From: Nanoarchaeota archaeon
GTDB lineage: Archaea > EX4484-52 > LFW-46
Assembly: GCA_018897155.1 (NCBI GenBank)
Contig: JAHILE010000024.1
Span: 1-52,624, forward strand
Reading direction: 5' to 3'
Length of the DNA stretch: 52,624 nucleotides
Positions 12,860 through 35,426 of this stretch are shown piece by piece. Position 1 is the first letter of the stretch; every line of letters starts with the position of its first letter. The notes under the pieces are model-generated. The model searched no databases, was not told the DNA's origin, and saw nothing but the letters and a program-made list of their open reading frames with translations. A program made the translations under genes and the position numbers.

Positions 12860-13885
12860 TTATTCTTGCAACACCGCATTCTCCTTAGCCCATGCGTAAA
12901 GCTCTTTTATCCCTTCCTTCGGCGAAACTTTCGGCGCCCACTTCAGAATTCTTTCCGCCTTCCTTATATCGCTGTAATAGACTTTCTGGTCCGCAGGCCT
13001 CCATTCGTGATGGCTTATTGGCGGAAGCAGCTGATTGCGGCCGATTTCTTCAAGGCATTCCTTTACTGATATGACATTTTTCGGCCCTCCGCCGATGTTA
13101 AAAACATTTCCCTTTGCCTCAGTGATATTCTCTATTTCTTTTATGCAAAGCGCGGCAACATCGCTTGCAAAAAGCACGTCCCGGACCTGTTTTCCGTCGC
13201 CGTAGATGCTCATCGCCTTTTTGCGCAGCGCAGAAATAACAAAGTGTGCTATCCAGCCCTGGTCCTCGTTGCCGTACTGATTTTTCCCGTACATGCAGCT
13301 GCAGCGGTTGACTACTGTCGGCATCTTGAAAACCTGGCTGTAATCCTGCATGTAGATGTCTGCAGCAAGTTTTGAGCATCCGTAAGGCGTGTGCTCCCGC
13401 GCATCTATTGAAAAGTTCTCAGGAATCCCCTTTCCTTTCAGTTCGCCGGCAAAATCATATCGCGTCTTCTGCTCTTGGAGAGGAACTGCATTGACATTAT
13501 CGCCATATACTTTGTTGGTTGAAAAGAATAAGATTGCCTGCGCTTTTCCATACTTTCGCGCGGCTTCAAGAACATTTAAAGTGCCGTCGATATTTGTAGC
13601 CTTGTCCAGCATAGGATCTGCAATAGATGTGGTTACAGCCACCTGGGCGGCGGCATGGACTATAGCGTCCTTGTTTACAACAGCATCTTTAACAGCATCA
13701 AAATTCCTTACATCAGCCTCGATTATTTTGACATCAGGGTAATTCTTCTTTATGAACGCCCTGTTTTTTACAGAAGTCTCTCTTGAAAAGTTGTCAAATA
13801 TTGTAACATCAAAGCCTTTTTTTGAGAATGCTTCCACAAGGTTTGTTCCTATAAATCCTCCGCCACCAGTAATTAAAATTTTCAT
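12860..13885 (-). CDS. CDP-paratose/tyvelose 2-epimerase-like extended SDR
   Basis: The N-terminus (ITGGGGFIGTNLVEAF) is the NAD-binding turn, and YGCSK holds the catalytic Tyr and Lys. The stretch MYGKNQYGNEDQGWIAHFV and SIYGDGKQVRDVLFASDV is the pattern found in CDP-paratose 2-epimerase (RfbE-like) proteins. That family makes CDP-tyvelose from CDP-paratose, both 3,6-dideoxyhexoses, which matches the E1 enzyme encoded 1.7 kb away. The sugar specificity remains an inference. The gene is transcribed towards 12827 and lies downstream of the glycosyltransferase at 13950-15047 on the same strand, with a small hairpin repeat between them. Confidence 0.78.
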   Translation of the reverse strand: MKILITGGGGFIGTNLVEAFSKKGFDVTIFDNFSRETSVKNRAFIKKNYPDVKIIEADVRNFDAVKDAVVNKDAIVHAAAQVAVTTSIADPMLDKATNIDGTLNVLEAARKYGKAQAILFFSTNKVYGDNVNAVPLQEQKTRYDFAGELKGKGIPENFSIDAREHTPYGCSKLAADIYMQDYSQVFKMPTVVNRCSCMYGKNQYGNEDQGWIAHFVISALRKKAMSIYGDGKQVRDVLFASDVAALCIKEIENITEAKGNVFNIGGGPKNVISVKECLEEIGRNQLLPPISHHEWRPADQKVYYSDIRKAERILKWAPKVSPKEGIKELYAWAKENAVLQE

Positions 13886-13911
13886 TTTGAATCCCCATAA
13901 TCTTGAAAAAT

Positions 13912-13947
13912 GAAAAGCTTCGAATAAGCGAAGCGAAACGAGATGAT
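13912..13947 (+). repeat. Dispersed hairpin repeat, short copy A
   Basis: This copy contains AAGCTTCGAA, GCGAAGCGAA and the terminal CGAGATGAT box. It lies between two minus-strand genes and ends three bases before the stop codon of the glycosyltransferase. It shares both end boxes with the copies at 16.6, 17.3 and 35.4 kb but lacks their leading hairpins. Confidence 0.65.
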
Positions 13948-16101: not shown

Positions 16102-17244
16102 TCATTTTTTAAGCCTCCTAAATACATCATCCGCAAAACCGCGGAAAACACCAAAACCAGTTGCAAATGCTCTGAACAGTATTATAACAAATGCCCAAAA
16201 TCCAACCAGAATATCTCTTTTGAATATGTGTATTAGCAAAGGTAAAGAAAGAAATAATATTGCTATTGTTGGAATTATTTGATATATTACAATCCATGAA
16301 AATGGCGGCATCTTTTGAAAAATAATCCAACGCACAACATCACTAAGTGCAGAGGAAAAAAATAGTCCTGCAAAAAAGATTTCCAAAAAGGCGCTCTTTG
16401 GCGTATATGAATGCCCTTTTTTGAGCGTTTTTTCTCTTTTTTGGTAAACTCTGTATCTCCATCGCGCGTTTCTGTATTTTTGGCGCAAGTACTTCATTAA
16501 AGTGTTAGGGTGTGTGTGGTAAACAATGGCTTTAGGCGCGAAAACCATTTTTGGGGCTGTCAAAGTCCCAAAATCCTTGCGCTCCGCTTTAGGCTTTTCA
16601 GACGATGTCTGAAAAAGCTTCGAGCCTTGCGAGATGATCCTATAGCCCGACTCGGCAATTCTAAATGAAAGCTCAGGGTCCTCTCCGGCGGATGTTGAAA
16701 ACGACTCGTCAAATCCGCCGAATTTTTCAAATATATCCTTGCGGTACCCTGCAGAGAACGTCCCGATAAAATCAATAGATTTCATTCCCGCCATTTTCGC
16801 GTGCCTCTCCTCGATTTCATACTGCGCAAATCTTGCGATAATTTCCTTCTGGCGCGTCCTGTAAGTGCCTGAAACTCCGACAACAATTTTATCCGAGAAA
16901 GGCGCGGCCATTTCCGCAATCCAGTTCTCCTCCGGCTCGCAGTCGGAATCCGTAAATAATAGTATGTTTCCGCGCGCCATTCTCGCGCCGAAATTGCGCG
17001 CAGATGCCGGGCCTTTGTGCTGGCGCTTAAAGAACTTAACATTTTTGAAAGATTTGACAATATCTACAGTTTTATCAATTGAGCCGTCGTCGACAACAAT
17101 AATCTCAAATTTCTGGCTTATATATGCAGTGCTTCCTTCTTTATCAACAACCTCGTAATTTTTAATGCTCTGCAACTGAAGCGCCTTGATGCAGTTGCCT
17201 ATTGTCTTCTCGGAATTGTAGGATGGCATTATTACAGAAATCAT
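16102..17244 (-). CDS. GT2 glycosyltransferase with C-terminal membrane segments and an in-frame repeat insertion
   Basis: It has the GT2 core IVVDDGSIDKT, ASARNFGA, LFTDSDCEPEENW and GEDPELSFRI, and about three hydrophobic segments near the C-terminus (about 290-370), so it is probably membrane-anchored and acts on a lipid-linked acceptor. Between GYRI and VFAPKAIVYHTHP, which are normally joined, there are about 29 extra residues (204-232). Their DNA (16549-16637) is a copy of the dispersed hairpin repeat. A second odd stretch of about 16 residues (29-45, NYEVVDKEG ... YISQ) splits the first strand from its usual position and looks like a diverged partial duplication of the following KFEIIVVD. 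The reading frame stays open through both. Confidence 0.82.
   Translation of the reverse strand: MISVIMPSYNSEKTIGNCIKALQLQSIKNYEVVDKEGSTAYISQKFEIIVVDDGSIDKTVDIVKSFKNVKFFKRQHKGPASARNFGARMARGNILLFTDSDCEPEENWIAEMAAPFSDKIVVGVSGTYRTRQKEIIARFAQYEIEERHAKMAGMKSIDFIGTFSAGYRKDIFEKFGGFDESFSTSAGEDPELSFRIAESGYRIISQGSKLFQTSSEKPKAERKDFGTLTAPKMVFAPKAIVYHTHPNTLMKYLRQKYRNARWRYRVYQKREKTLKKGHSYTPKSAFLEIFFAGLFFSSALSDVVRWIIFQKMPPFSWIVIYQIIPTIAILFLSLPLLIHIFKRDILVGFWAFVIILFRAFATGFGVFRGFADDVFRRLKK
16549..16637 (+). repeat. Dispersed hairpin repeat, copy C inside a coding region
   Basis: Two hairpins are visible: TTTTGGG at 16549-16555 pairs with CCCAAAA at 16567-16573, and TTTTCAGAC at 16595-16603 pairs with GTCTGAAAA at 16607-16615 over a GAT loop. 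They are followed by AGCTTCGAG and the CGAGATGAT end box. The same order of parts is seen at 35315-35426. The element is in frame in the GT2 gene and adds about 29 residues. Confidence 0.7.
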
Positions 17245-17275: not shown

Positions 17276-17349
17276 ATCATCTCGTTTGCTGCTCGCAAAC
17301 TCGAAGCTTTTGAGGGCTCCAACCTCAAAAAGCTTGGCGCAAAATGCCA
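17276..17349 (-). repeat. Dispersed hairpin repeat, copy D
   Basis: On the minus strand this reads: a TTTTGAGG/CCTCAAAA hairpin, then AAGCTTCGAG, then a TTTGC/GCAAA hairpin, then CGAGATGAT. It lies between the start of the GT2 gene and the end of the radical SAM gene. The last hairpin is TTCGC/GCGAA in copy B, so both sides of the stem changed together, which argues that the folded form matters. Confidence 0.65.
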
Positions 17350-35301: not shown

Positions 35302-35426
35302 CAAGCTTTGCTTGTTTTGGGATTTAATATTCCCAAAAGCTTGAAAAGCCATAGGCTTTTCAGGACTCTAGACTTTTCGGCATTCTGCCGAAAAAGCTTC
35401 GAATTCGCAGCAGCGAACGAGATGAT
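35302..35426 (+). repeat. Dispersed multi-hairpin repeat, longest copy B
   Basis: Five small hairpins follow one another: CAAGC/GCTTG (35302-35314), TTTTGGGA/TCCCAAAA (35315-35338), GAAAAGCC/GGCTTTTC over ATA (35343-35361), TTTTCGGCA/TGCCGAAAA over TTC (35374-35394) and TTCGC/GCGAA over AGCA (35404-35417). The end box CGAGATGAT is at 35418-35426. The copies at 13.9, 16.6 and 17.3 kb are built from subsets of the same parts. Confidence 0.75.

Follow-up and report, generated by a model that had tools for sequence, protein, structure and literature searches.

In two related uncultured archaea, a small hairpin repeat is inserted in frame in a GT2 family glycosyltransferase gene and in at least 10 other genes, among them several housekeeping genes. 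The glycosyltransferase gene lies in the window, by which we mean the whole 52,624-nucleotide stretch of DNA analysed here, and its insert is one copy of a repeat family dispersed through the window's own genome (G000). We consider it very probable that this is a non-autonomous family of palindromic repeats that spreads as short DNA units and is read through where it lies within genes. The earlier note suggested that the repeat may serve to expand proteins, a role that is not needed, as tolerated insertion is enough.

The insert in the glycosyltransferase gene

The claim that a repeat copy sits in frame in the GT2 gene is borne out by an intact open reading frame and a 90-bp gap relative to the ortholog at locus L029 of G001, the only other species of the same genus compared. 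The gene and its insert are placed as follows:

16102..17244, minus strand: host gene, GT2 family glycosyltransferase, 380 amino acids; PF00535, E=1e-31 (Pfam); intact open reading frame
16552..16641 (ends +/- 1-2 bases), minus strand: 90-bp in-frame insert, 30 residues; empty site in the G001 ortholog (L029), absent in G024 and G027

Forty relatives were searched for the GT2 ortholog, and that of G001 was matched as two aligned parts that meet. In blastn, the query up to position 604 and from position 694 onward abut at one base of the relative; because both halves of the alignment meet at this same base, the insertion is a precise one of 90 bp at about 16552-16641, within a few bases of the interval 16549-16637 first proposed. 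The G001 protein reads GYKMVFAPKAFVYHTHP at the site, and the window protein reads GYR, 30 extra residues and then MVFAPKAIVYHTHP. These residues are IISQGSKLFQTSSEKPKAERKDFGTLTAPK (within a base or two); the insertion suspected after GYRI is real, but comprises 30 rather than about 29 residues and lies between GYR and MVFAPKA. The alignment with relatives lacking the insert that the earlier note had suggested thus yields a clean empty site in G001, and the 30 residues are absent also from the G024 protein (54% identical) and the more distant G027 protein. The A-rich target is TATAAAATGG in G001, and the final A's of the second hairpin of the insert coincide with it. Judging from the fold, the site is presumably a loop, since it follows the helix behind the ED motif and precedes the next strand; matches to solved GT2 structures either fail to reach the insert or are too weak to place it.

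On the coding strand the insert reads linker A, hairpin 1, linker B and hairpin 2, that is, two linker-hairpin units:

16617..16638, minus strand: linker A, ATCATCTCGCAAGGCTCGAAGC (coding strand); dispersed repeat, 13 exact genome matches, control 0
16595..16615, minus strand: hairpin 1, 9-bp perfect stem and 3-nt loop, TTTTTCAGAC-ATC-GTCTGAAAA (coding strand), from folding; 16595-16603 pairs with 16607-16615
16573..16594, minus strand: linker B-like, GCCTAAAGCGGAGCGCAAGGAT (coding strand); similar sequence at the same position in the KsgA, nucleotidyltransferase and MiaB-like copies
16549..16573, minus strand: hairpin 2, 7-bp stem TTTTGGG/CCCAAAA, from the sequence, folding within the insert; 16549-16555 pairs with 16567-16573

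Because the insert folded together with its flanks (131 nt) gains no stability over its shuffles (z = -1.04), the case for a hairpin element here rests on the repeat family and not on the folding energy of this copy.

The same gene holds a second in-frame insert absent from G001, of 48 bp (window 17100-17161, residues VVDKEGSTAYISQKFE), which has no hairpin and looks like its neighbour duplicated in tandem and since diverged (NYEVVDKEGS / KFEIIVVDDGS). It was rejected as a repeat copy, as no further copy occurs in the genome.

A dispersed family of linkers and hairpins

Each unit of the family joins a conserved linker, ATCATCTCG-n-CTCGAAGC, to a perfect hairpin of the form TTTT…AAAA behind it, and units occur singly, the shortest being 42 bp, or chained. 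With the insert as query, G000 returned 27 matches, the weakest of which are chance-like. Three further copies lie in the window:

13875..13947, minus strand: linker A and hairpin, whose right arm extends over the start codon of the epimerase gene at 12860-13885
17276..17349, plus strand: copy in the gap that separates the GT2 gene from its neighbour, with linker A, hairpin TTTTGAGG/CCTCAAAA, then AAGCTTGGC..GCCATGAT
35354..35426, minus strand: intergenic copy, linker A and hairpin TTTTTCGGCA/TGCCGAAAA

A fuzzy form of linker A matched 34 times in a 384-kb sample of G000, against once in the reversed sequence. Dropping two chance-like matches and two contig-end duplicates leaves 30 distinct copies, whose density is specific to the sample because the stretches were picked around matches of a coding copy. 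Behind the linker, a hairpin with T's at its start and A's at its end is stronger than in shuffles of the copy's own downstream sequence in 26 of the 30 (p<=0.05). The mean perfect stem measures 8.2 bp, falling to 5.0 bp when left arms are swapped between copies, and 29 of the 30 copies carry a distinct left arm; the hairpin sequence is therefore free to vary while its pairing is retained. Subfamilies of hairpins do exist, such as GAACCCAA…TGAATGGTTC at L056, L057 and L058.

The extra GT2 residues could instead be an ordinary loop indel whose likeness to a hairpin is coincidental, a reading to which the unremarkable fold of the whole GT2 region and the non-repeat 48-bp insert in the same gene might lend some colour. 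Its probability is close to nil: the same linker recurs at unrelated sites far above chance and a hairpin adjoins nearly every copy, which for the linker family already refutes an explanation by indels and coincidence.

Chains of linkers and hairpins are also found between genes (L046). At L059 (18590-18900) five or more hairpins with GATTAA-type stems follow one another in a chain, and the linkers between them vary (A, B and a GCCGAGAGC..GCAAACGGAT type). An identical linker-hairpin chain stands at the ends of three contigs, C46, C23 and C2 (L014, the end of L046 and the start of L073), and because the same chain ends all three, a longer repeat holding it probably broke the assembly; the genomes compared here are metagenome bins split over many contigs.

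The exact linker GCTTCGAGC-N(0-14)-GCGAGATGAT has 13 matches in G000, 4 in G001 and one in G029; it gave no match in the other 31 genomes of the phylum that were searched, and the reversed control gave none. A stricter linker pattern, run against a public genome collection that may omit records of G000 itself, matched two contigs only, both archaeal: one from LFW-46, which contains the exact G001 locus, and one from CSMAG_334, which contains the G029 locus. Viral contigs held no match to the exact linker, and an Rfam scan of the window returned no described RNA family, only a weak tRNA call elsewhere. As far as these linker scans reach, the family appears restricted to one genus, apart from a single copy in a different family of that order.

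Open reading frames cover 0.89 of the 384-kb sample and hold 12-16 of the 30 copies (binomial 2e-10 to 1e-6), and genes are therefore strongly avoided by the repeat. Several copies lie directly at gene starts (window 13875-13947; L061 12162-12235; L064 17162-17225), where the right arm over the start codon (ATGAAAAT) could affect translation initiation. At L110 (390-480), an RpiB-like gene has an apparent N-terminal extension made of AAAATCATGAAAATCAATGATTTTCAAGC and a hairpin TTTTCAG..CTGAAAA, adjoining CTGAAAATCGCAATAGC, where the start ATGAAAATCGC might be expected.

Such placements raise the question of whether the repeats are a selected structural element (a terminator, a REP-like nucleoid site or a start-codon control of translation), the genic copies being a by-product. 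Most copies are placed at the ends of genes or between them, an arm overlaps the start codon in three or four cases (window 13875-13947; L061 12162; L064 17202), and complementarity is retained despite sequence variation, all of which would suit selection on structure. Copies in the middle of open reading frames in both species argue instead for insertion activity, as does the fact that none of the 11 genic sites compared below is common to both; we regard a selected structural element as an unlikely explanation of the family.

Copies within other genes

At least 12 of the 30 copies in the 384-kb sample lie within genes and in frame, with a few more at gene ends. The host genes in G000 include those for UvrA (near the C-terminus), UvrC (two tandem units), KsgA/Dim1, a type IA topoisomerase, a class I aminoacyl-tRNA synthetase, PEP synthase (PpsA), a methyltransferase, GatA, a nucleotidyltransferase and the GT2 enzyme; only the last was named by a Pfam scan, the other names being read from the sequence.

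Empty sites are found in both directions. Eight of the 11 compared sites are occupied in G000 only, with inserts of 42 bp in the topoisomerase, the aminoacyl-tRNA synthetase and PpsA, 57 bp in the methyltransferase, 108 bp in UvrC, 105 bp in KsgA, about 48 bp in GatA and 90 bp in GT2. The other three are occupied in G001 only (GluRS, 57 bp; a small helical protein, 51 bp; an S1/P1-like protein, 45 bp), so no site is common to the two species. The G000 inserts are absent from the orthologs in G001, G003 and G029 (UvrC was compared with G001 only), and the units in GluRS and the small helical protein are absent also from G029 and G003 (the S1/P1-like gene was compared with G000 only). Gain over loss is supported by the outgroups G003 and G029 at most sites and from G024 and G027 for GT2, the UvrC and S1/P1-like sites having no outgroup.

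All 11 inserts are multiples of three and free of stop codons (chance (1/3)^11 = 6e-6), and among the 30 copies we found no evidently broken gene. Being divisible by three and open in frame, genic copies would be read through, and the encoded proteins would gain 14-36 residues. In KsgA the insert follows the helix behind motif I and precedes the next strand, presumably in a loop, judging from the fold. At surface loops such as these the effect is probably near neutral, the host protein tolerating the addition.

We also weighed whether the inserts are removed from the message by archaeal bulge-helix-bulge splicing, or skipped by the ribosome as in Magnusiomyces mitochondria, leaving the proteins unexpanded. 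The hairpins do sit in essential genes, and palindromic bypassed elements are described from yeast mitochondria (PMC6649704). Neither process would require inserts to keep the frame and exclude stop codons, as 11 of 11 do, and the junctions share no common extra motif beyond A-runs; removal or bypassing seems to us very improbable.

The earlier note expected coding copies to favour the same frame. They do not: all three forward frames are used (IISQ-SKLF, NHLA--RSF, SSRS-SKL), which rejects a single favoured reading frame and means that no one peptide is favoured. The bias is rather in orientation, the linker lying on the sense strand in 13 of 15 genic copies. Units offer 1.9 of 3 open frames in the linker-sense orientation versus 1.07 of 3 in the other, so that open frames largely explain the bias, with only a borderline effect beyond stop codons (p about 0.05).

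Proposed mode of spread and relation to known palindromic repeats

In the mechanism we favour, linker-hairpin units would move, probably by copying, as small non-autonomous elements, the hairpin being recognised by an enzyme acting on single-stranded DNA. Units would enter A-rich sites. Most copies lie between genes; those entering genes would persist only where they are divisible by three, the frame is open and the host protein tolerates the added loop. At the compared insert ends there is no consistent target-site duplication, only shared A/AATC runs.

A narrower form of the same explanation assigns the mobilisation to an IS200/IS605-type Y1 transposase (TnpA/RAYT), with the units as REP- or PATE-like elements. 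G000 has three Y1 genes and G001 one, and hairpin ends together with the lack of a clear target duplication suit single-strand transposition. The linker is, however, absent beside the Y1 genes at all four of these loci (flanks read by eye). Y1 genes also occur in genomes of the phylum that lack the repeat, and conversely G029 carries one repeat copy and no detected Y1. Y1 as the obvious mobiliser is therefore unsupported, the two distributions failing to match, and we hold this form possible but doubtful.

A more radical variant has each new unit build its own hairpin on insertion, for instance by fold-back copying beside the target, with only the linker inherited. We think this improbable; if true, the palindrome would be renewed at each insertion, a mode of spread undescribed for elements like the Rickettsia palindromic elements (RPEs). 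The related idea that the target serves as template for the right hairpin arm seemed plausible at gene starts and was rejected, as mid-gene empty sites show A-runs only.

Palindromic repeats of this kind have precedents. The RPEs of Rickettsia are dispersed palindromic repeats found between genes and in frame in unrelated housekeeping genes, whose proteins keep an open frame; they are about 105-150 bp long and conserved in sequence per family (PMC10969869, PMC2229807). The archaeal family is likewise dispersed and palindromic, in frame in unrelated genes with empty-site relatives, but its single units measure 42-57 bp and reach 90-108 bp only as two chained units, it couples a conserved linker to a copy-specific hairpin, and it belongs to another domain of life. 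No relation to RPEs by sequence was found in the exact linker scan, which matched two archaeal contigs alone. The RPE analogy proposed in the earlier note holds for the mode of action, an in-frame, mobile-looking palindrome at 11 lineage-specific sites, always divisible by three in length and with hosts that are unrelated and in part essential, but not for RPE identity by sequence, length or taxon.

As far as the papers citing them describe, palindromic repeats with coding potential also lie inside protein genes of the archaeon Methanocaldococcus jannaschii (Suyama et al. 2005, cited in PMC2229807 and PMC2996958), and protein-coding palindromic repeats of Wolbachia form in-frame insertions in genes, there in a bacterial endosymbiont (cited in PMC2996958). 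Both were compared by the exact linker scan only, and M. jannaschii is not among its two matching contigs.

Mosaic construction has its own parallels. Neisserial NIME, BOX and BIME are mosaic repeats in which conserved and variable palindromic blocks alternate in chains, mainly between genes; the archaeal units are chained in the same way but occur in frame within genes as well. In the comparison with MITEs, which have terminal inverted repeats with a target-site duplication and a related autonomous transposon, the repeat ends share A/AATC runs with the target and show no consistent duplication; among possible autonomous elements the Y1 transposases were examined, and no linker was seen in their flanks. 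The family differs from REP/RAYT systems in that we found no Y1 gene flanked by the repeat at the four G000 and G001 loci. By its sequence features, this would be a new family of protein-coding palindromic repeats, short and mosaic in build, that works like the RPE, Wolbachia and M. jannaschii precedents. The literature we searched contains no earlier description for this archaeal lineage, weak evidence given that subscription papers lay mostly outside the search.

Taken together, these observations add an independent archaeal case to the RPE-like insertion known from Rickettsia, Wolbachia and M. jannaschii. Hairpins that are copy-specific yet nearly always complementary point to a mobiliser that recognises structure. 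With insertions on both sides, in genes as well known in structure and activity as those for KsgA, topoisomerase and GluRS, the two species can be compared with each other, and the tolerance of proteins for abrupt insertions of 14-36 residues can be tested directly.
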